Below are positions 17,419-59,351 of a stretch of 64,000 nt of DNA, piece by piece. The notes beneath the pieces were generated by a model that did not search any database, was not told where the DNA came from, and worked only from the letters and a program-made list of their open reading frames with translations. The position numbers and the translations under genes were made by a program. Numbering within the stretch: position 1 is the first letter of the stretch; every line of letters starts with the position of its first letter. Source of the DNA: Brachybacterium phenoliresistens (lineage in GTDB: Bacteria > Actinomycetota > Actinomycetes > Actinomycetales > Dermabacteraceae); NCBI RefSeq assembly GCF_000576425.1, contig NZ_KK069989.1, positions 1 to 64,000 of the forward strand, written 5' to 3'.

Positions 17419-18726
17419 TCAGGCCTTCGGCTGCATGCCCTCCAGGCTGGCGACGATCTCCTCGGCGACCTCCGCCGCGGGGCGCGTGCCGAAGAGCGCC
17501 TCCTCGGCCATGCGGGTGAACTCGTCGCCGAAGGACACGCCCGAGGCGGGGGTGACCATCGGCGGGGGGACCACCTCGGCCTGCATGTCGCGGGCGAAGT
17601 CCAGGACGATCATCTCGCTCTCGTCGAGCACGGACTCGAGGGAGTCCTGGACCTCCGGGAACGAGGTCACGCCGCGCTCGAGGCGGAGGATCTTCGCGCA
17701 CTCGAGATCGCGCAGGAGGAAGTCCATCAGGGTCGCGGCATTCTCGGGGCTCGCGGACTTCGCGCTGATCGACCAGTACATGGAGGCCTTGTTGACCATC
17801 TGGTGGTCGCCGCTGGTGCGCGCGGGAAGGCGCAGCAGCGTCATCGGCGAGCCGGAGGAGGCCATGAAGGTCTGCACCTGGGAGTGGAACTGGAGATGGA
17901 AGGCGGCGCGGTTGTTGCCGAAGCGGCCCTGCTCGACGCCGGCGGCCCCGTCCTCGACCTGCTCGGAGACCGCAGGCACGGCGCCGACCTCGACGAGCTT
18001 CGCGGAGTACTCGAGGAACTCGGTGACGGTCTGCGCGGTCAGCGGCGACTCGCCCTCGCGGGGGAACAGCTGCTCCCCGCTCTGGCGGGCCCAGGCGCCC
18101 AGCTCGGCGGCGCCGCGGCCGAAGAAGTCGAAGCCGTAGACGTCCTCGCCGGCGCCCTTGGCCCAGTCGGTGACCTGCTGGGACAGGGCGAGGAACTCGT
18201 CCCAGGTCCAGGTCGTGTCATCGGGCAGGGGGATCCCGGCCTTCTCGAGGATCGCGGTGTTCGCGCCGACGGCGAAGATGCCGATGCCCAGCGGGGCGCC
18301 CACCAGGGTGCCGTCGGCCAGACGACCGGTGTCCAGCACCGCGGCGTCCATCGCGCTGAGGTCGAGCTGGTCGGAGACCGTCTCGAGGTCCAGCAGCGTG
18401 GAGCGGGTGCCGTAGGAGTCGATGTACGACTCGTCCATCTGCAGCAGGTCGGGCATGGCACCGCCGGCGGTCTGGGTGGCGAGCTTGTCCCAGTAGCCGG
18501 TCCATTCGGAGTACTCGGGGGAGACCGGGATGTCCGCGTGGGACTGGGAGAACAGGTCCAGCGCCTCGTTCGTCATCGAGTTGCGCAGATCGCCGCCCCA
18601 CCAGTAGATGCGCACGGCGCCGCCGCCGCCGTCCCCGCCCGAGCCGGCGTTGGGCCCGCAGGCGGCGAGGGCGGGAAGGGCGCCTGCGGCGGCGAGCAGG
18701 GCGAGAGCAGTGCGTCGAGTGGTCAT
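17419..18726 (-). CDS. Carbohydrate ABC solute-binding lipoprotein (CUT1 type), orphan
   Basis: A 435-residue lipoprotein with lipobox LAAC at Cys23 and the segments VRIYWWGGDLRNSMTNEALDLF and GYWDKLATQTAGGAMPDLLQMDESYIDSYGTRSTLLDLETV. These are close to the same segments of the protein at 19068. A start at 18726 is preferred to 18729, because the GGAGG site leaves a 6-base spacer to it. It is the first gene of a minus-strand pair of binding-protein genes and is divergent from the ABC operon at 19068. A promoter with a LacI-like palindrome precedes it. The ligand is unknown; it is likely a sugar or small oligosaccharide. Confidence 0.87.
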   Translation of the reverse strand: MTTRRTALALLAAAGALPALAACGPNAGSGGDGGGGAVRIYWWGGDLRNSMTNEALDLFSQSHADIPVSPEYSEWTGYWDKLATQTAGGAMPDLLQMDESYIDSYGTRSTLLDLETVSDQLDLSAMDAAVLDTGRLADGTLVGAPLGIGIFAVGANTAILEKAGIPLPDDTTWTWDEFLALSQQVTDWAKGAGEDVYGFDFFGRGAAELGAWARQSGEQLFPREGESPLTAQTVTEFLEYSAKLVEVGAVPAVSEQVEDGAAGVEQGRFGNNRAAFHLQFHSQVQTFMASSGSPMTLLRLPARTSGDHQMVNKASMYWSISAKSASPENAATLMDFLLRDLECAKILRLERGVTSFPEVQDSLESVLDESEMIVLDFARDMQAEVVPPPMVTPASGVSFGDEFTRMAEEALFGTRPAAEVAEEIVASLEGMQPKA

Positions 18727-18777
18727 CATCGGCCTCCGTCGGGTCCGGGGCAGCGGCGGCCCGGAGTGGGTGAGTCC

Positions 18778-18815
18778 AGTGTGGAGGTTGACAAGCGACC
18801 CGTCAAGCGCTTTCC
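18778..18815 (-). promoter_or_regulatory. Promoter with LacI-like palindrome for the minus-strand binding-protein genes
   Basis: On the minus strand TTGACG (18806-18801) and CACACT (18783-18778) are 17 bases apart. The -35 box overlaps the palindrome core AAGCGCTT (18805-18812) within GTCAAGCGCTTTCC, which has the central CG of LacI-family operators. Repression by occlusion is inferred. Confidence 0.5.
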
Positions 18816-18891
18816 TGGTCCCTCGGAGCACTGCTCCGCCCCGTCTCCCCCGGCGGGGACGCGGCGACCGGCCCGGCGTCGGACGCCCGAT

Positions 18892-19067: not shown

Positions 19068-20369
19068 ATGTTCACCAGGCGCCAGACCATCGCCCTCGGG
19101 GCCGCAGCCCCCGCCCTCGTCGCCCTCGCCGCCTGCGGGCCCAACTCGGGCTCCGGCGGCAGCGGCGGATCCGACGGCGGCTCGGGCACGCTCCGCTTCG
19201 CCTGGTGGGGCAACCCGACGCGCAACGAGAACACCGCCAACGTCATCGAGGCGTACAAGAGCGTGGACGACTCCGTGACGATCTCGGCCGAGCCGGGGGA
19301 GTGGAGCGGCTACTGGGACAAGCTCGCCACCCAGACCGCCGGCGGCGACATGCCCGACATCATCCAGATGGACGAGAAGTACCTCTCCGAGTACGGGCAG
19401 CGCGGCGCCCTGCTGGACCTCGCCGAGGCCGGCCTGGACACCAGCAAGTTCGCCCCGGGCACCGTCGAGGTGGGCGAGGTCCCCGACAAGGGGCTGATGG
19501 CCATCAACGCGGGGCTGAACGCCGTGTCCATCATCGTGAACCCCGCCGTCTTCGAGGAGGCGGGCGTCGAGCTGCCCGACGACTCCACGTGGACCTGGGA
19601 GTCGATGGCGCAGCTGGCCGCGCAGATCACCGAGGCCACCCCCGACGGCACCTACGGCATGTCCCAGATGGGCGGCGTGCAGGGCGTCTTCCAGCTCTAC
19701 GTGCGCCAGCTGGGCCAGGACCAGTACAACGCCGAGGGCGTCGGCTTCGACGCCGCGGCCGCCACCCAGTTCCTGGAGTGGGGCAAGTCGCTCCAGGACA
19801 CCAAGGCCTGCCCCGACGCCTCCGTCTCCGTGGAGGACGCCTCCAAGTCCATGGACCAGTCCCTGTTCGCCACCGGCAAGATCGGCATCACGATGGTCTG
19901 GTCCAACCAGGTCGTCGCCCATGACGCGCTGGTCCCCGGCGGGGTGAAGGTGCTGCGCCCGCCGTCGATGACCGGCAGCTCCAAGGACGTCCAGCTCTGG
20001 TACAAGGCCTCGATGTACTGGTCGGTCTCGGCGAAGACCGCCGATCCCGAGGCCGCGGTGAAGTTCGTGGACTTCCTCGTGAACTCGCCCGACGCCGGCA
20101 AGATCCTCTCCGTCGAGCGCGGCGTGCCCGGCAACCTCGACGTGCGCGAGGCGATCACGCCGGAGCTCGACGCGGCCAACGTCATGGCCGTGGAGTACCT
20201 CGACTCCGTCGAGTCCGAGCTGGGCGAGCCGCCGGCCATCACCCCGCAGGGCGGCGGCGAGTTCGAGGCGATCCTCACCCGCGTCAGCGAGGACCTGCTG
20301 TTCGGGACCATCGATGCCGCCGCCGGCGGCCAGCGGCTGGTCGACGAGCTGAACGCGGCGCTGGCCTGA
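19068..20369 (+). CDS. Carbohydrate ABC solute-binding lipoprotein (CUT1 type)
   Basis: A 433-residue lipoprotein with a signal ending LVALAAC (Cys23) and a Gly/Ser linker, then LRFAWWGNPTRNENTANVIEAYK and GYWDKLATQTAGGDMPDIIQMDEKYLSEYGQRGALLDL. It captures a sugar outside the cell and delivers it to the two permeases encoded directly downstream. The ATG at 19068 follows AGAGGAGA. It is strongly similar along its length to the orphan binding protein at 46742; for example both have DDSTWTWE/D and PSMTGS...QLWYKASMY. The ligand is not known. The ATPase is not encoded nearby. Confidence 0.9.
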   Translation: MFTRRQTIALGAAAPALVALAACGPNSGSGGSGGSDGGSGTLRFAWWGNPTRNENTANVIEAYKSVDDSVTISAEPGEWSGYWDKLATQTAGGDMPDIIQMDEKYLSEYGQRGALLDLAEAGLDTSKFAPGTVEVGEVPDKGLMAINAGLNAVSIIVNPAVFEEAGVELPDDSTWTWESMAQLAAQITEATPDGTYGMSQMGGVQGVFQLYVRQLGQDQYNAEGVGFDAAAATQFLEWGKSLQDTKACPDASVSVEDASKSMDQSLFATGKIGITMVWSNQVVAHDALVPGGVKVLRPPSMTGSSKDVQLWYKASMYWSVSAKTADPEAAVKFVDFLVNSPDAGKILSVERGVPGNLDVREAITPELDAANVMAVEYLDSVESELGEPPAITPQGGGEFEAILTRVSEDLLFGTIDAAAGGQRLVDELNAALA

Positions 20370-20410
20370 GCGGCCGGCATCGCGCAGACCCCCATCGACC
20401 GAGGAGCATC

Positions 20411-20452
20411 ATGACCATCATCAGCACCCCGCCCCCGGGAGGGATCGCATGA
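20411..20452 (+). promoter_or_regulatory. 13-codon leader ORF coupled to the first permease gene
   Basis: GAGGAG (20401-20406) precedes an ATG at 20411 that opens a 13-codon frame, MTIISTPPPGGIA. Its TGA (20450-20452) overlaps the permease ATG (20449) as ATGA. The PPPG run is a known type of slow, EF-P-dependent sequence, so the frame could tune permease translation. Function is inferred. Confidence 0.5.
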
Positions 20453-21387
20453 GCGCCGTGGGCGAGCTCGCCTCCCTGGCCAAGCGCCGCTCCGCGGGCG
20501 GTCCGAAGGAGAAGCACCCGGACAACCGGGCCGGCCTGGCGTTCATGGCGCCGTGGCTGATCGGCCTGCTGGTCATCACCATCCTGCCGATGATCGCCTC
20601 GTTCGTGCTCTCCTTCACCGACTACAGCCTGATCGCCCCGCCGGAGTTCACCGGGCTGGACAACTACAAGGAGATGATCGGCGACACCCGGCTGCACAAG
20701 TCCCTCGCGGTCACGTTCATCTACGTGCTCGTGGGGACGCCGCTGCAGCTCATCGTGGCGCTGCTGCTGGCGGTGCTGCTGAACCAGGGCATGAAGGGCC
20801 TGTCCTTCTACCGCTCGGTGTTCTACCTGCCCTCGCTGCTGGGCGGATCGGTCGCCATCTCGATCCTGTGGCGGCAGATGTTCGGCGCCGGCGGCCTGGT
20901 CAACCAGCTGCTGGAGGCGATCGGCTTCACGAACCTGCCCGGCTGGGTCTCCAACCCGGACACGGCGCTGGGCACGATCATCCTGCTGCACGTGTGGACG
21001 TTCGGCTCGCCGATGATCATCTTCCTGGCGGGGCTGCGGCAGATCCCGCAGATGTACTACGAGGCGGCCGGGGTGGACGGCGCCTCGAAGCTCCACCAGT
21101 TCTTCCACATCACGATCCCGCTGCTGACCCCGATCATCTTCTTCAACGTGGTGCTCCAGGTCATCAACGCGTTCCAGTCGTTCACCCAGGCGTTCGTGGT
21201 CTCGGGCGGGACGGGCGGGCCCTCGGACTCCACGCTCTTCTACACCCTGTACCTGTACCAGAAGGGCTTCACCCAGTTCGACATGGGCTACGCCTCGGCG
21301 ATGGCGTGGCTGCTGCTGGCCATCGTCGCGATCTTCACCGCGATCAACTTCTTCGTCTCCAAGTTCTGGGTGTTCTACGATGACTGA
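20449..21387 (+). CDS. ABC sugar permease, MalF type (CUT1)
   Basis: A 312-residue inner-membrane permease with six main helices. It carries the MalF-type N-terminal segment LAFMAPWLIGLLVITILPMIASFVLSFTDY and an EAA loop YYEAAGVDGASKLHQFFHITIPLLTP that contacts the ATPase. It pairs with the next gene, which overlaps its end by 8 bases. It is translated after a 13-codon leader frame and also has its own GGGAGGGA site. No ATPase gene is present in the window, so a shared MsiK-like ATPase encoded elsewhere is likely, as known for actinobacterial CUT1 systems. Confidence 0.93.
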   Translation: MSAVGELASLAKRRSAGGPKEKHPDNRAGLAFMAPWLIGLLVITILPMIASFVLSFTDYSLIAPPEFTGLDNYKEMIGDTRLHKSLAVTFIYVLVGTPLQLIVALLLAVLLNQGMKGLSFYRSVFYLPSLLGGSVAISILWRQMFGAGGLVNQLLEAIGFTNLPGWVSNPDTALGTIILLHVWTFGSPMIIFLAGLRQIPQMYYEAAGVDGASKLHQFFHITIPLLTPIIFFNVVLQVINAFQSFTQAFVVSGGTGGPSDSTLFYTLYLYQKGFTQFDMGYASAMAWLLLAIVAIFTAINFFVSKFWVFYDD

Positions 21388-22270
21388 TTCCACCGCCACC
21401 GCCCCCGCCCCGGCCGCCGCTCCCGCCCTGCGGGTGCGCCGCACGAATCCGACGCGCTCGGTGATCAAGCACATCGTGATGATCGCGGTCAGCCTGGTCA
21501 TGATCTATCCGCTGCTGTGGATGATCGTCTCCTCCCTGCGGCCCAACGACGAGATCTTCCGCAATCCCTCGCTGCTCCCGCTGAGCTTCGACGTCTCCAA
21601 CTACGTCGACGGCTGGAACGCGCTGGCGCAGCCCTTCTCGCACTACCTCATCAACTCGACGCTGCTGGTGCTGGGCTGCGTGATCGGCAACCTGGTGGCC
21701 TGCTCGCTGACCGCCTACGCCTTCGCGCGGCTGCGGTTCTGGGGCCGGAACATCGCGTTCGCCATCATGCTCATGACGCTCATGCTGCCGATCCACGTCG
21801 TGATCGTGCCGCAGTACATCATGTTCTCCCAGACCGGCTGGGTGAACACCCTGGTCCCGCTGGTCCTGCCGAAGTTCCTCGCGACCGACGCGTTCTTCGT
21901 GTTCCTCATGGTGCAGTTCATCCGCGGCATCCCCCGCGAGCTCGATGAGGCGGCGCGCATCGACGGCTGCGGCCATTTCCGGATCTTCTTCCAGGTGATC
22001 CTGCCGCTCATGCTCCCGGCGCTCGCGACGACGACGATCTTCACCTTCATGTGGATGTGGAACGACTTCTTCGGCTCCCTCATCTACCTGACCACGCCCG
22101 AGAACTTCACGGTGCCGCTGGCGCTGCAGTCGTTCCTGGACTCGCAGGGCACCTCGAACTGGGGCGCGATGTTCGCGATGTCGATCCTCTCGCTGGTCCC
22201 GCTGTTCCTCGTGTTCCTGGTGGGCCAGAGGTTCCTCGTCAAGGGCTTCGCCACCACCGGCATCAAGTGA
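21380..22270 (+). CDS. ABC sugar permease, MalG type (CUT1)
   Basis: A 296-residue permease with six membrane segments and the MalG-type EAA loop ELDEAARIDGCGHFRIFFQVILPLMLP. The N-terminal 25 residues are Ala/Pro-rich and cytoplasmic. It partners with the MalF-type permease upstream, whose coding end it overlaps by 8 bases, indicating coupled expression in equal amounts. The following genes encode oxidoreductases, which suggests the imported sugar or its breakdown product is oxidised or epimerised soon after uptake. Confidence 0.93.
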   Translation: MTDSTATAPAPAAAPALRVRRTNPTRSVIKHIVMIAVSLVMIYPLLWMIVSSLRPNDEIFRNPSLLPLSFDVSNYVDGWNALAQPFSHYLINSTLLVLGCVIGNLVACSLTAYAFARLRFWGRNIAFAIMLMTLMLPIHVVIVPQYIMFSQTGWVNTLVPLVLPKFLATDAFFVFLMVQFIRGIPRELDEAARIDGCGHFRIFFQVILPLMLPALATTTIFTFMWMWNDFFGSLIYLTTPENFTVPLALQSFLDSQGTSNWGAMFAMSILSLVPLFLVFLVGQRFLVKGFATTGIK

Positions 22271-22308: not shown

Positions 22309-23721
22309 ATGACCACCCGCTATGCCGTGATCGGCACCGGACACCGCGCCCAGATGTACATGAACGCCATCGCCGGCGACCACGCCGAGGTCGCCGACCT
22401 GGTGGCTCTCATCGACATCAACCCCGGGCGCGCCGCCTGGCACCGTGACCAGCACGCGGCGTTCCAGGACGCGGTCCTCGCCGCCCCCGAGGATCTCGAG
22501 GACGTGATCCGCGAGCAGCGGGTGGACCGGGTGATCGTGACCTCGATCGACCGCTGCCACGCCGAGCACGTGGTGCGGGCCCTCGAGGCCGGGGCCGACG
22601 TCGTGGTCGAGAAGCCGCTGACCATCGACGCCCCGAGCGCCCGCGCCATCGAGGAGGCGGCGCGGCGCACGGGGCGCGAGGTCGTGGTGACCTTCAACTA
22701 CCGCTACAGCCCGCGCAACAGCGCGCTGCGCGAGGTGATCGCCTCGGGGCGGATCGGCACCCCCGTCTCCATGGTCTTCGAGTGGGTGCTGGACACCTCC
22801 CACGGGGCGGACTACTTCCGCCGCTGGCACCGGGACAAGACCAACAGCGGCGGCCTGTTCATCCACAAGGCCAGCCATCATTTCGACCTCGCCTCCTGGT
22901 GGCTGGACGCCGTCCCCTCCCGCGTGTACGCCCGGGGCGGCCTGCGCTTCTACGGCGAGGACAACGCCCGCGAGCGCGGCCAGGAGCTCGGGGCCGAACG
23001 CGGCACCCACGACGGCGAGCACACCCCCTTCGAGCTGGACCTGCGCGGGGACGAGCGCCTGCGGGCGCTGTACCTCGAGCAGGAGCAGCACGACGGCTAC
23101 CGCCGCGACCAGTCCGTGTTCGGCGCGGGGATCACCACCGAGGACAACCTCACCGCGATCGTCGACTTCGACAGCCGTGCGGTGCTCACCTACGCGCTGA
23201 ACGCCCACAGCCCCTGGGAGGGCTACCGCGTCCACGTCAACGGCACCGAGGGCCGCGCCGAGCTCGAGGTCGTCGAGCGCGCCGAGGTGATCCCCACCGA
23301 CGACGGCAGCAAGGTCGTCGACCCCAGCGCCGTGCGCGTGGAGACCGGTGCGCAGGTGCGCGCCGAGGGCGAGCGGCTCATCGTCCAGCGCCACTTCGAG
23401 GCCGCCGAGGAGGTCGAGATCGTCCAGGGCGAGGGCAGCCACGGCGGCGGCGACGCGCTCATGCTGGCCGAGGTCTTCCGCGGCCGGCAGCACGACCCGC
23501 TGGGCCGCGCCGCCGACTGGACCGACGGGCTGCGCGCCATCTCCGTCGGCATCTGCGGGAACGAGTCCCTGGCCACGGGCGGGCCGGTGGAGGTCACCGA
23601 CTTCCTCGGCATCGACCTGCGTGCGGCCGCCGCCGCGGCCGCGGAGCGCTCGGCGGGCGCGACGGCCGCGCCGGAGGGAGCCTCGCGGCAGGCCCTCGAG
23701 TCCGACGGCGCCCGCGCATGA
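22309..23721 (+). CDS. Gfo/Idh/MocA-family oxidoreductase
   Basis: A 470-residue NAD(P)-dependent sugar oxidoreductase. The N-terminal Rossmann motif is YAVIGTGHRAQMY. The family's EKP motif is present in VVVEKPLTIDAPSA (about residue 102), and the metal/substrate loop includes GGLFIHKASHHFDLASWWLD. This larger subgroup is often found with glycoside utilisation genes. The ATG at 22309 follows GGAAGGA. It is 38 bases after the permease gene and overlaps the next gene as ATGA. The substrate is unknown; it is likely a sugar or inositol derivative imported by the preceding ABC system. Confidence 0.9.
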   Translation: MTTRYAVIGTGHRAQMYMNAIAGDHAEVADLVALIDINPGRAAWHRDQHAAFQDAVLAAPEDLEDVIREQRVDRVIVTSIDRCHAEHVVRALEAGADVVVEKPLTIDAPSARAIEEAARRTGREVVVTFNYRYSPRNSALREVIASGRIGTPVSMVFEWVLDTSHGADYFRRWHRDKTNSGGLFIHKASHHFDLASWWLDAVPSRVYARGGLRFYGEDNARERGQELGAERGTHDGEHTPFELDLRGDERLRALYLEQEQHDGYRRDQSVFGAGITTEDNLTAIVDFDSRAVLTYALNAHSPWEGYRVHVNGTEGRAELEVVERAEVIPTDDGSKVVDPSAVRVETGAQVRAEGERLIVQRHFEAAEEVEIVQGEGSHGGGDALMLAEVFRGRQHDPLGRAADWTDGLRAISVGICGNESLATGGPVEVTDFLGIDLRAAAAAAAERSAGATAAPEGASRQALESDGARA

Positions 23722-25826
23722 GCGCCGTGCGCGTCGCGCTGGTCGGCACCCGCGGCTTCGGGCGCGTCCACTTCCAGGGCCTGCAGAAGCAGATCTCCGA
23801 GGGGCTGGCCGAGCTGGTCGGCGTCGTGGACGTCGCCGAGCCGGAGGCCGATGTCACCGCCCCGTGGTTCCTCACCCTCGGCGAGCTGCTCGAGCAGCTG
23901 CCCGGCGAGCGGGCCCCCGAGGTCGTCATCATCGCCACCCCGATCACCACCCACATGGCGATGGCCCTCGAGGCGCTCGCGGCCGGCTGCCACGTGCTGC
24001 TGGAGAAGCCGCCGGTGCGCTCCCTGGCCGAGCACTGGCAGCTGCTGCGCGCCGCCCGCGAGGCCGGGCGCTCCGTGCAGGTCGGCTTCCAGGCCCGCGG
24101 GGGCGGCGGCATCGACCGCCTGCGCCGCATCGTGCGCGGCGGCGAGCTGGGGCGGGTGCTGCGGGTGACCGCCTACGGCGCCTGGCAGCGCGACCGCGCC
24201 TACTACTCCCGCAGCCGCTGGGCCGGCCTGCGGCGCCTGGGCGGGGAGCGGGTGGCCGACGGCGTGGCCACGAACCCGCTGGCCCACGGCGTCCACGCCG
24301 CGCTCACCGTCGCGGGGATCGATCGCGCCGACCAGATCGCCGAGGTCACCACCGAGCTGCGCCGCGCCCACGACATCGAGGCGGACGACACCACCTACCT
24401 GGGCATCCTGCCGGCGCAGGCGGACCTGCCGCCCGTGCACTGCGCTCTGGTGACCACCGCCCCCGACCAGTCCGACCCGTGGGTCGAGGTCGTCGCCGAG
24501 CGCGGCCGCGCCCGCCTGTACTACACCGCCGACCGCGCCGAGATCGGCCCCGCGCAGGTCGTGCCCTCGCAGATCGTGCCCGCCGGGGTCGCGGCCGCGG
24601 ACATCGGCGCCGCCGCCCGCCGCGAGGACTACGAGCGGATCTCCCTGGTCGAGAACCTTCTGCGCCACGTGCGGGACGCCTCCGTCCCGCTGCTGTGCCC
24701 GCTGGAGTCCACCAGCGCGTTCACCGCGGTGCTCGATGCGACCCAGTCCGTCCCGGATCCCACGCCCATCGGCCCCGAGCACGTGACCTGGGTGGGGGAG
24801 GGGCCGGCGGCCCATCCGGTGGTCGAGGACGTCGAGGCGTGGATGACCGCGGCTCTCGACTCCGGTGCTCCGTTCGCGGAGGTCGGCGCCCCCTGGGGCG
24901 ACGCCTCGGCCGTGCACCGCTGGTCCCCGCGCCGGGTGCTGCGCACCCAGGAGATCGCCGGGTCCGAGATCGCCGTGCTCGTGGACGGCAGCGACATCAT
25001 CCCGCGGTCGAGCCCGCGCCCCTACCTGCACCCGCTGCGCACCCTCGGCGGGACCGTGATCACGGACGCCCACCCGGCCGACCACGACTGGCACAACGGC
25101 CTGGGCGTGGTGATCCAGGACGTCGCGGACGTCAACTTCTGGGGCGGGCGCACCTACGTCGAGGGCGCCGGGTACATCTGGCGCGAGGACCACGGCACCA
25201 TCGCCCATGAGGCCTTCGAGGAGACCTCGGCCGACGGCACCGCCTGGACGCAGCGCCTGCGCTGGCGGGGCCCGGAGCCCGCGGCCGATGCCTCCGCTGC
25301 CGATGTCTCTGCGGCCGATGCCTCCGGCGGCTCCGCTCCCTCGGACGGGCCCGGACCACGCGTGGAGCTCGAGGAGACCCGCACCCACGTCTTCGCGCCC
25401 GTCGAGGGCGGCTGGAGCGTGGAGCTGACCTCGCAGCTGCGCCCCGTGAGCGCGGAGGCCATGGAGCTGGGCAGCCCCGGCAGCCACGGCCGCGAGGGCG
25501 GCGGATACGGCGGCCTGTTCCTGCGCCTGGCCCCGCTGGCCGAGGCGACCGTCGCCGTCCCCGGCCCCGACGGCGGCCGTCTCACCGGGGAGGACGCCGT
25601 CCACGGCGCCCGTGCCCCGTGGGTGGAGCTGTGCGGCACGGCCGCCACCGGCGGACGCTTCGCGGTGCGGATCGAGCACCTCGACGAGCACGACGACCCG
25701 TGGTTCGTGCGCGTGGCCGGGTACCCCGGCCTGGGATCGGCGATCGCCTGGGACAGCCCGGTCACCACCACCGCCGAGCAGCCGCTGACCCGTGCCTTCC
25801 GCATCACCGTCCGCGACCTTCCCTGA
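23718..25826 (+). CDS. Fusion protein: Gfo/Idh/MocA oxidoreductase plus PmoA (DUF6807) domain
   Basis: A 702-residue two-domain protein. Residues 1-380 form an oxidoreductase: VALVGTRGFGRVHF at the start, LLEKPPVR near 97, and NPLAHGVHAALTVAG in the second domain. From about 394 the sequence becomes a PmoA/DUF6807-type beta domain with RPYLHPLRTLGGTVITDAHPADHDWHNGLGVV and the later GGYGGLFLRL. PmoA here is a database family name, not the copper methane monooxygenase subunit. An Ala/Ser/Asp-rich insertion lies near 520-545. The DHDWHNG histidines look like an active or metal site. Function is unknown. It is coupled to the upstream oxidoreductase by ATGA. Confidence 0.82.
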   Translation: MSAVRVALVGTRGFGRVHFQGLQKQISEGLAELVGVVDVAEPEADVTAPWFLTLGELLEQLPGERAPEVVIIATPITTHMAMALEALAAGCHVLLEKPPVRSLAEHWQLLRAAREAGRSVQVGFQARGGGGIDRLRRIVRGGELGRVLRVTAYGAWQRDRAYYSRSRWAGLRRLGGERVADGVATNPLAHGVHAALTVAGIDRADQIAEVTTELRRAHDIEADDTTYLGILPAQADLPPVHCALVTTAPDQSDPWVEVVAERGRARLYYTADRAEIGPAQVVPSQIVPAGVAAADIGAAARREDYERISLVENLLRHVRDASVPLLCPLESTSAFTAVLDATQSVPDPTPIGPEHVTWVGEGPAAHPVVEDVEAWMTAALDSGAPFAEVGAPWGDASAVHRWSPRRVLRTQEIAGSEIAVLVDGSDIIPRSSPRPYLHPLRTLGGTVITDAHPADHDWHNGLGVVIQDVADVNFWGGRTYVEGAGYIWREDHGTIAHEAFEETSADGTAWTQRLRWRGPEPAADASAADVSAADASGGSAPSDGPGPRVELEETRTHVFAPVEGGWSVELTSQLRPVSAEAMELGSPGSHGREGGGYGGLFLRLAPLAEATVAVPGPDGGRLTGEDAVHGARAPWVELCGTAATGGRFAVRIEHLDEHDDPWFVRVAGYPGLGSAIAWDSPVTTTAEQPLTRAFRITVRDLP

Positions 25827-56850: not shown

Positions 56851-58302
56851 CTAAGCCGAGGCGTCCTCGCGGTCCCGGGCCAGCTCCAGCAGGCGGGCGA
56901 AGCGCCGGCGGCGCCGAGCGTAGTCCTGCGTGAGCGCGGCGTCCGGGGTGAAGGTGCGGGTGATCTCCGCGGTGCGCTCGCGCAGCTGCGCGGGCTCGAG
57001 CAGCCCCAGGCCGATGCCGGCGAGGAAGGCCGCGCCGTGCGCGGCGCCGTGGCCGGTGCGGGGACGGGAGACGGGGATCCCCAGGACGTCGGCCTTGATC
57101 TGCATCCACACGTCCGAGGCGGAGCCGCCGCCGGTGGCGCGCATCTCCGGGACGGGGAAGCCGTGCGCGGCCAGCTGCTCGAGGTCGGCGGCGAGGGCGA
57201 GGGCGTTGCCCTCCATGGCGGCGAGCATGAGGTCCACGCCGTCGGTGTCCAGCCCGATCCCGTCGATCATCCCGCGGGTGCGGGGGTTCCAGCTGGGCGT
57301 GCGCTCCCCGGCCAGCGCGGGGACCACCATGAGCGGGGAGGGGCGCCGCCGCGCCCGCAGCGGCCCGGTCTCGCGCAGGTCCTGCGGGCCTCCGGCGAGG
57401 CCGTTGACCCAGTCGACGGTCGCCCCGGCGGTGACCTGGGCGGTGATCAGCAGATCGACCCCCGGCAGGCAGTGGCGGGTATGGATGAACCCCGGCACGT
57501 GCACGCCGGCGGGGACGGGCAGGATCGTCACGCTCGAGAAGCCGTTCATCTCCACCAGCGGATCGCCCACCGCGAGGGCCCCGGCCTCGAGCGCGGAGCC
57601 GACGGAGTCGATGGCCCCGGCCAGCACCGGGGTGCCCGCGGGGATGCCGGTGGCGGCCTCTGCCGCCGCGGTGACGGCGCCGACCACGGCCGTGGTCGGC
57701 ACGATCTCGCCGAGCAGCTCCGCGGGCACCCCGGCCTCGGCGAGGCGCGCATCGAGGGCGCCGGTGGTCTCGTCGAAGGCCTGCAGCAGCGCGGCGGTGC
57801 TGTCGTCCAGGGCGGCGCGGCCGGTGAGGCGGCGGACGACGAAGCCGTTGGCGGAGACCACCGTGCGGGTGCGGGCGAGGACCTCGGGCCGCTCCCGGCG
57901 CAGCCACAGCAGCTTCGCGGTGCCGAAGAAGGGATCGGCCCCGTGCCGGTGCCCGGGGGCGACGGCCGCGATCTCGTGGGCCTCGGCCTCGGCCCGGCGG
58001 TCGAGCCAGGTCAGCGCGGGACCGGCGGGCTCGCCCTCGGCGTCCAGCGGGACGAGCGTCGGGGCCTGGCTCGTCACCGCGACCCCGGCGATCGGCTCGG
58101 GGCCGAGGAGGGAGCGGGTGAGCTCCGTGAGCGCCGACCACCATGCCCCGGGGTCCTGCTCGGCGCCGCCGCGGGCGTCCACCGAGGTGGGGTAGCGGCG
58201 GGCGCCGTCGCGCACCAGGGCGCCGTCGCGATCGGAGAGGACCACCTTCACCCCGCTGGTGCCGACGTCGATGCCCAGCAGCAGTCCGGTCGCGGCGGTC
58301 AT
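56851..58302 (-). CDS. FGGY-family carbohydrate kinase, substrate unknown
   Basis: A 483-residue kinase with GLLLGIDVGTSGVKVVL at the start, GVAVTSQAPTLVPLDAEG, VLAGAIDSVGSALEAGAL, FIHTRHCLPGVDLLI and MRATGGGSASDVWMQIKADVLGIPVSRP. The overall pattern is xylulokinase/gluconokinase-like. Its neighbours are a 2-hydroxyacid dehydrogenase, DeoR regulators and a polyol-type permease. A polyol- or aldonate-derived substrate is therefore likelier than rhamnulose, for which rhaB is present. The ATG overlaps the dehydrogenase stop as ATGA. Confidence 0.88.
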   Translation of the reverse strand: MTAATGLLLGIDVGTSGVKVVLSDRDGALVRDGARRYPTSVDARGGAEQDPGAWWSALTELTRSLLGPEPIAGVAVTSQAPTLVPLDAEGEPAGPALTWLDRRAEAEAHEIAAVAPGHRHGADPFFGTAKLLWLRRERPEVLARTRTVVSANGFVVRRLTGRAALDDSTAALLQAFDETTGALDARLAEAGVPAELLGEIVPTTAVVGAVTAAAEAATGIPAGTPVLAGAIDSVGSALEAGALAVGDPLVEMNGFSSVTILPVPAGVHVPGFIHTRHCLPGVDLLITAQVTAGATVDWVNGLAGGPQDLRETGPLRARRRPSPLMVVPALAGERTPSWNPRTRGMIDGIGLDTDGVDLMLAAMEGNALALAADLEQLAAHGFPVPEMRATGGGSASDVWMQIKADVLGIPVSRPRTGHGAAHGAAFLAGIGLGLLEPAQLRERTAEITRTFTPDAALTQDYARRRRRFARLLELARDREDASA

Positions 58303-59351
58303 CGGGGCACCTCGGTGAGGGGGTGCAGCGGCGCCTCGCCGTCCAGGAAGCGCCGCAGCTCCTCGGCGACGCCCTCGGCGGCGCGGGCGGCGGTCTCGCG
58401 GCTGGCCCCGGCGATGTGCGGGGTGAGCACCACGTCGTATCCCTCTCGGGCGAGCGTCAGCACGCCCTCGTCCATGTCCACGGGCTCGTCGGGGTAGACG
58501 TCGAAGGCGGCCGCGCCCAGCTGTCCGGAGCGGATCGCGTCCGCCACGGCCGCGTAGTCGACCAGGCCGCCGCGGGCGGCGTTGACGAGGATCCCGCCGG
58601 GCCGCATGGCGGCCAGGCGCTCGGCGCTGACGATCCCGGCGGTGTCCTCGCTCAGCCGGGCGTGCACGGAGACGGCGTCGCTGCGGCGGAACAGCTCCTC
58701 GACCTCGGCGACCTGCTCGGCGATCCCGTCCAGCGCCCCGGGGGCGAGGTAGGGGTCGAAGACGAGCACCTCGGCGCCCAGGGCGGCGAGCACGCGGGCC
58801 ACGTGCGCCCCCACGGCCCCGGCGCCGATCAGGCCGATGGTCGCGCCGTGGACCTCCCGGCCCACCTGGTCGTACCGGTACAGGTCGCCGCGCCACCGCC
58901 GCTCCAGCAGGGAGCCGTGCGCGGTGGGGATGCGGCGGAACGCCGCCAGCAGCAGGCCCAGGGTCATCTCCGCGGTGGCGATGCCGTTGCGGCCGGGCAC
59001 GTTGACCACGAGGATCCCGAGCTCCTGCGCGGTGCGCAGGTCCACATTGGTGGGGCCGCCGCGGGAGACGCCGATGAAGCGCAGGTCGGGGCTCTCGCGC
59101 AGCACCCGCTCGGACAGCGGGGCGAGCTGGGTGAGGATCGCCGCGCGGCCCTGCAGGGCCTCGAGGAGCTCCTCCTCCGTGCCGGAGGCCTCGTGGATGC
59201 CGCCGACGCTGTGGAAGGGGACGTCGGGCCATTCGAGCTGCAGGGTGGAGATGTCCGCGTGCTCGCCAAGGCGCCGGGCGGCGGCCTCGGCGAACAGCTC
59301 CGGGAGGATGAAGCGGTCGCCGGCGGCGAGGATCGGAGGGGGCGTCGACAT
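58299..59351 (-). CDS. D-isomer-specific 2-hydroxyacid dehydrogenase
   Basis: A 350-residue NAD-dependent dehydrogenase. It has the nucleotide motif GLIGAGAVGAHVARVLAALGAEVLVFDPY, the catalytic Arg region VNAARGGLVDYAAV, a Glu in DVYPDEPV, and the catalytic His in LTPHIAGASRETA. The N-terminal substrate part contains FIGVSRGGPTNVDL, as in the PGDH-like subgroup. The ATG at 59351 is preferred to 59366 because a GGA site fits it. It is first in an operon with the FGGY kinase and a DeoR gene, and divergent from a second DeoR gene 53 bases away. The substrate is unknown. Confidence 0.9.
   Translation of the reverse strand: MSTPPPILAAGDRFILPELFAEAAARRLGEHADISTLQLEWPDVPFHSVGGIHEASGTEEELLEALQGRAAILTQLAPLSERVLRESPDLRFIGVSRGGPTNVDLRTAQELGILVVNVPGRNGIATAEMTLGLLLAAFRRIPTAHGSLLERRWRGDLYRYDQVGREVHGATIGLIGAGAVGAHVARVLAALGAEVLVFDPYLAPGALDGIAEQVAEVEELFRRSDAVSVHARLSEDTAGIVSAERLAAMRPGGILVNAARGGLVDYAAVADAIRSGQLGAAAFDVYPDEPVDMDEGVLTLAREGYDVVLTPHIAGASRETAARAAEGVAEELRRFLDGEAPLHPLTEVPR

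Follow-up and report, generated by a model that had tools for sequence, protein, structure and literature searches.

The 64,000 nt of Brachybacterium phenoliresistens DNA analyzed here (the window) contain, directly before a sugar-transporter permease gene, a 13-codon reading frame with its own ribosome-binding site and three consecutive proline codons. This raises the question whether the short frame (mini-ORF) acts on the permease gene, through its peptide or through the passage of ribosomes, or whether it is a product of chance.

Composition of the locus

The mini-ORF lies within an ABC sugar-transporter operon (19068-22270) encoding a binding protein, a MalF-like permease and a second permease. 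The features are as follows:

19068..20369, + strand: extracellular solute-binding protein gene (SBP_bac_1; Pfam PF01547, 4e-22)
20401..20406, + strand: Shine-Dalgarno (SD) sequence GAGGAG of the mini-ORF (from the sequence; duplex energy -7.9 kcal/mol), with a 4-nt spacer to the ATG
20411..20452, + strand: putative 13-codon ORF MTIISTPPPGGIA, ATG at 20411, stop TGA at 20450-20452 (from the sequence; shuffle null 0.3-1% per gap)
20429..20443, + strand: PPPGG codons CCG CCC CCG GGA GGG (from the sequence); most of the permease SD is made up of the two Gly codons
20437..20443, + strand: permease SD GGGAGGG inside the mini-ORF (from the sequence; -12.1 kcal/mol), overlapping the Pro9-Gly-Gly codons
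20449..20452, + strand: ATGA overlap of the permease ATG (20449) with the mini-ORF TGA (from the sequence)
20449..21387, + strand: MalF-like permease gene downstream of the mini-ORF (PF00528; phmmer matches to MalF and SugA chains)
21380..22270, + strand: second permease gene (PF00528), overlapping the first by 8 nt (ATGACTGA)

The first permease scores 54.1 bits against PF00528 (curated cut-off 26.4), which identifies it as a MalF-type ABC permease (BPD_transp_1), and matches the MalF chain 2r6g_F with 1e-18 in phmmer. Two Gfo/Idh genes follow downstream of the transporter operon, the second of them fused to DUF6807. The fusion partner of this domain differs between genomes: in the window it is the Gfo/Idh oxidoreductase (23718-25826), in Isoptericola a LacI-type regulator (L102:781-2793) beside the same transporter. 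A second binding-protein gene (17419-18831, - strand), about 38% identical to the first, is divergently placed.

A preliminary description of the locus had reported an SD, an ATG and a 13-codon frame whose stop overlaps the permease start, and all of these elements are present in the sequence, as is the PPPG run (CCG CCC CCG GGA). The frame does lie between the binding-protein gene and the permease, in a gap of 79 nt, and calling its ribosome site good is fair in view of the duplex energy of -7.9 kcal/mol. The layout is that of a coupling leader: an SD and a start codon open a short frame, and its stop overlaps the next start. The permease SD is strong, with -12.1 kcal/mol compared to -7.9 kcal/mol for the mini-ORF (both calculated with an assumed anti-SD tail). 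Because this SD spans both Gly codons, it accounts for the glycines that follow the proline run.

To judge how easily such a frame arises, we generated 5000 dinucleotide-preserving shuffles of the gap. An SD-led overlapping ORF appeared in 0.3-0.4% of them when the last 14 nt were kept and in 1% when nothing was kept, while 3% of shuffled gaps contained a PPP, in the frame of the mini-ORF, somewhere in the last 12 codons ahead of the permease start. A rough gene call of the window (which, for example, started the second permease too late) lists 35 gene starts that follow a gap of 30 nt or more; the mini-ORF is the only SD-led overlapping case among them. The TGA overlap alone is no evidence, because it is supplied by the permease Met-Ser codons ATG-AGC.

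The gap in same-genus orthologues

We compared the locus with the best 80 of 108 relatives, all at least 61% identical. An orthologue of the permease with at least 79% identity occurs in 22 of the 37 other Brachybacterium genomes; one further locus (L032) with 63-64% identity and a different neighbourhood was left out of this count. The binding-protein gene, at 58-71% identity, precedes the permease in all 22 orthologues. None of them showed an SD-led overlapping ORF when the 100 nt preceding the permease were scanned (0.79 expected); instead, each carries a bare SD directly before the permease start. A looser scan, allowing TTG and extending over 200 nt, returned a single GTG frame that starts inside the binding-protein gene (L019, with its duplicate L040) and was not counted. 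By this comparison, the mini-ORF is private to this genome among the 22 same-genus orthologues. Since the orthologous genes make do with a bare SD, the mini-ORF is dispensable for the permease gene. The preliminary description would have taken a disrupted frame in close relatives as a refutation; what the relatives show is a missing frame, not a broken one, and even the nearest of those compared shares only 88% identity in the permease. The start itself reads ATGAGT or ATGAGC in all 22 orthologues, each without a mini-ORF, and on these sequences the ATGA overlap is inherited. Furthermore, GGGA is found at -12 to -9 in 16 of the 22, and the permease SD of the window lies in the same register.

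What most orthologues of the window's own clade carry in the gap is a GC-rich hairpin. Among the 17 other members of this clade (L010-L026) the gap folds with z <= -3.4 in 13, while the remaining four have z-scores from -1.0 to -2.2; the gaps of the five more distant orthologues are short and contain no hairpin. The gap of the window is without the hairpin as well: its z-score is +2.1, folding no better than any of 200 shuffles, and a longer stretch around it gives +1.0. For these z-scores, the limits of some gaps were placed manually according to where tblastn matches ended. Single-sequence folds were used because the sequence alignment failed to line up the stems; a covariation attempt on the relatives' hairpin thus met misaligned stems and returned seven pairs, three of them with double changes. 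When the permeases are placed on a tree (91 rows), the window forms a lone, unresolved branch within its clade. The earlier statement that expression normally drops at this point of the operon agrees with the hairpin of the relatives, which is missing from the window.

Short leaders before the permease in other genera

For the relatives, permease starts were assigned by a motif rule. Outside the genus, 32 of 67 loci carry an SD-led short ORF (SD of at least 5 nt) at this start, compared to 2.5 expected from shuffles; as the loci include related species, these are not 32 independent events. Thirty-one of the leaders overlap the permease start and one ends 13 nt before it. The excess is robust to the SD cut-off, with 38/67 loci at 4 nt or more (8.7 expected) and 18/67 at 6 nt or more (0.63 expected). 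As a control we used the starts of the binding-protein genes in the same first set, where 0 of 63 showed an SD-led short ORF; here the start was chosen by the best SD, a rule other than that used for the permease. A second set of 60 loci from the same order was selected blind to the upstream DNA: of the 100 genomes of other genera that gave a match, 60 placed high in the list contributed one locus each (G202 and G314 were missed). After removal of nine duplicates and seven loci without a clear start, 44 were kept, and 20 of these carry an SD-led short ORF (1.57 expected). Three of the 20 (L162, L163 and L177) are apparent 3' ends of binding-protein genes, leaving 17 short leaders proper. The leader-bearing genera (L052-L118 and L154-L213) include Sinomonas, Arthrobacter, Isoptericola, Demequina, Cellulosimicrobium and Microbacterium. 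Within the genome of the window itself, a scan of 29 of the 50 paralogous matches revealed no convincing leader; its three hits were two apparent binding-protein gene ends and one case that depended on the chosen start.

The surroundings of these leaders differ from those of the mini-ORF. In 22 of the 32 leader loci of the first set the binding-protein gene is located downstream of the permease, in eight it is encoded on the opposite strand and in two it was not seen. None of the 32 has it immediately upstream in the same orientation, as found in the window; among the 35 loci without a leader, 4 have it directly in front. Judged from these gene orders, the leaders of this set belong to units in which the permease stands ahead of, or apart from, the binding-protein gene. 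Therefore, the parallel to the window concerns the layout before the permease and not the position in the operon.

Leaders do not plainly compensate for weak permease SDs, because in the first set the SD strength is similar whether or not a leader is present: 5 of 32 loci with a leader and 6 of 35 without one lack an SD of 4 nt or more, and a 7-8 nt SD is present in 12 of 32 and 12 of 35, respectively, without a clear difference. In the second set, strong permease SDs (7-8 nt) are rarer with a leader (2/20 vs 8/24). Where the leader stop is at +4 (n = 11), the permease has no SD in five cases, one of 4 nt in three and one of 5 nt in three. Permeases that lack an SD of 4 nt or more occur, for instance, in Sinomonas and Microbacterium (L057, L090, L070). 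The leader peptides vary between genera. A third-position excess of changes was absent in seven of eight overlapping groupings, which mostly hold 1-3 pairs each, and one Sinomonas pair spares position 2 (0.48, 0.19, 0.55). Mapped on the permease tree, leader presence requires 11 label changes, at least nine of which are forced by well-supported branches.

Candidate function and competing explanations

The reading we favor, to which we would give about even chances, is that the mini-ORF is a lineage-specific, independently acquired coupling leader with an incidental peptide, a natural form of bicistronic design. Ribosomes would load at GAGGAG and translate the 13 codons across the internal permease SD GGGAGGG. 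After terminating at the TGA of the ATGA, they would re-initiate at the overlapping ATG or, alternatively, would have opened the permease site so that new ribosomes can bind. The peptide itself would have no function, and PPPG would mainly be a by-product of C-rich sequence and the SD. The mini-ORF would thereby occupy the place where orthologues have a hairpin and a bare SD between the binding-protein and permease genes. We infer translation of the mini-ORF, its coupling to the permease and the absence of a peptide function. The most likely function, according to our analysis, would be the delivery of ribosomes to, and the unfolding of, the permease start. Its effect on the permease may be small, because the permease SD is strong (-12.1 vs -7.9 kcal/mol); with the mini-ORF held open, the predicted access to this SD rises only from 0.25 to 0.39. 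That the leader is coupled to the permease, as first proposed, is plausible: the ATGA with its -4 spacing matches a known architecture of translational coupling, as set out in a review (PMC12548453), and leaders occur before this permease elsewhere. The absence of the frame in all 22 orthologues speaks on the other side.

A wider version of this idea, which we consider improbable, holds that throughout the order the permeases of this family are controlled by purpose-built, fast-evolving coupling leaders whose sole conserved trait is translation into the permease start. The window would then show a new leader placed in an operon, where it replaced the hairpin as setter of the ratio of binding protein to permease, and the overlap of PPPG with the SD would let a paused ribosome close the permease site.

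The main and close rival to the coupling leader is chance, which we hold to be the less probable of the two while giving it real weight. The mini-ORF would here be a by-product of neutral drift in a GC-rich gap after loss of the hairpin, little translated or without effect on a permease that uses its own SD. This would agree with its restriction to one genome, with an overlap that comes free with ATG-AGC, with the strength of the permease SD and with the finding that none of the 32 other-genus leaders follows a binding-protein gene as in the window; at 0.3-1% per gap, the many gaps of a genome scan would also yield some such ORFs by luck. On the other hand, the combination of SD, ATG and open frame is rare in shuffles and unique among the 35 gene starts of the window, and its position is the start of a permease which elsewhere is frequently preceded by such leaders. 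In a further explanation, the mini-ORF would belong to the permease as its N-terminus: a single-base error or recent indel in the C/G run (CCCCGCCCCCGGGAGGG) would have separated the two frames, or -1 frameshifting would join them. Upstream of its start, the permease frame does stay open for 32 codons, across the entire gap, the run is homopolymer-like, and the start of the mini-ORF resembles another protein of the window, MSTPPP (gene 58299-59351, minus strand). However, the 22 orthologous permeases all begin with MSA, carry no N-terminal extension and have an SD immediately ahead of the start, and the window SD keeps the register seen in most of them, which makes this explanation very improbable.

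The preliminary description had instead seen the mini-ORF as a valve, in which a pause at PPPG that depends on EF-P or on charged tRNA-Pro would set the permease level. Judged from the codon positions, the permease SD and start would lie under a ribosome paused on PPP/G, and the pause should thus lower permease synthesis. PPP is rare in the proteins of the window (three in 15,473 residues from 34 genes), and EF-P-responsive leaders with three consecutive Pro codons exist, such as mgtP (PMC6460261). Nevertheless, the dependence on EF-P or proline supply gained no support, and we regard it as unlikely: the frame is absent in 22/22 orthologues, PPP occurs in 0/32 and 0/20 of the leaders found elsewhere (PP in 2/32 of the first set), and the Gly-Gly is dictated by the SD. 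With no conservation, the valve rests on one peptide. In E. coli, a Thr before PPP, as here, lessens stalling, but a later pause at PPP/Z (here PPP/Gly) is possible (PMC4176338). CCG, which provides two of the three Pro codons, is reported as the fastest Pro codon, and CCC followed by C, present here as CCC-CCG, as a frameshift-prone sequon (PMC8129111). Alternative RNA structures of the attenuator kind were not seen, as the gap folds worse than the shuffle mean (z of +1.0 and +2.1), and the + strand between 18700 and 21000 has no terminator-like site. An RNA switch was rejected, with no Rfam family at gathering score and a fold no better than shuffles. The idea that the mini-ORF start sits at the ancestral permease start, based on a 10-nt match (CCCCATCGAC) to L010, was dropped since 21 of 200 shuffles did equally well.

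Several known systems resemble the locus in part. Coupling uORFs and bicistronic designs share with the window an SD-led, short, dispensable ORF with an internal SD and a stop that overlaps or adjoins the next start (PMC12548453; PMC13255528). The review suggests that short uORFs may bring ribosomes to the gene that follows (PMC12548453), and in E. coli an engineered short out-of-frame ORF (nfORF) with an internal RBS and a stop beside the target AUG gave higher expression, a boost mostly lost without the start or stop codon and partly kept with a second reporter (PMC13255528). However, the nfORFs are engineered and the natural role in the review is a proposal, while the window ORF is natural, putative and placed between binding-protein and permease genes. 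In Salmonella, the gap between mgtC and mgtB likewise holds a very short ORF of a transporter operon, mgtQ, which acts on the translation of the next gene, but its mechanism involves acidic codons and alternative stem-loops, and several bacteria have it (PMC8092293), whereas the gap of the window is less structured than shuffles and its ORF is private. The EF-P-responsive leaders mgtP and mgtL are also short ORFs with Pro codons before a transporter gene; they control transcription elongation from long 5' leaders (PMC6460261), in contrast to the window, where no attenuator was seen, Thr precedes PPP and conservation is missing. Finally, mycobacterial MIRU insertions with -4 coupling join an ORF as NTGA at a gene start, as in the window (PMC12548453). 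Unlike for MIRU, no repeat family was found for the gap in the 38 genomes of the genus: a genus-wide DNA search for the origin of the mini-ORF returned the gap's own place and short matches, the best of these, in one of the 37 other genomes, with E = 2e-4 (76% over 54 nt).

Coupling leaders as a kind are already known. What may be new is their frequency before the same permease family in other genera, which rests on the counts of the two sets, the binding-protein control, the SD cut-off test and the placement data; the single case of the window is by itself of little weight. Titles and starts of abstracts, with subscription journals thinly covered, yielded no description of this leader, and a search for stem-loops between binding-protein and permease genes found nothing relevant. 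If the coupling reading is true, the mini-ORF would be a natural counterpart of an engineered expression device. Such leaders are gained and lost repeatedly before one gene family, as the label changes on the tree show. One may then ask why ribosomes reach a membrane permease via a throw-away ORF and not via a plain SD. In six loci (L055, L058, L059, L162, L163 and L177) the end of the binding-protein gene itself reaches or overlaps the permease start, which may be a second route to coupling. The Demequina leaders (L079, L088 and L105) contain a small hairpin, GACGCC-loop-GGCGT(C), whose codons give RR..GV; the fold was computed for L079 and L105.
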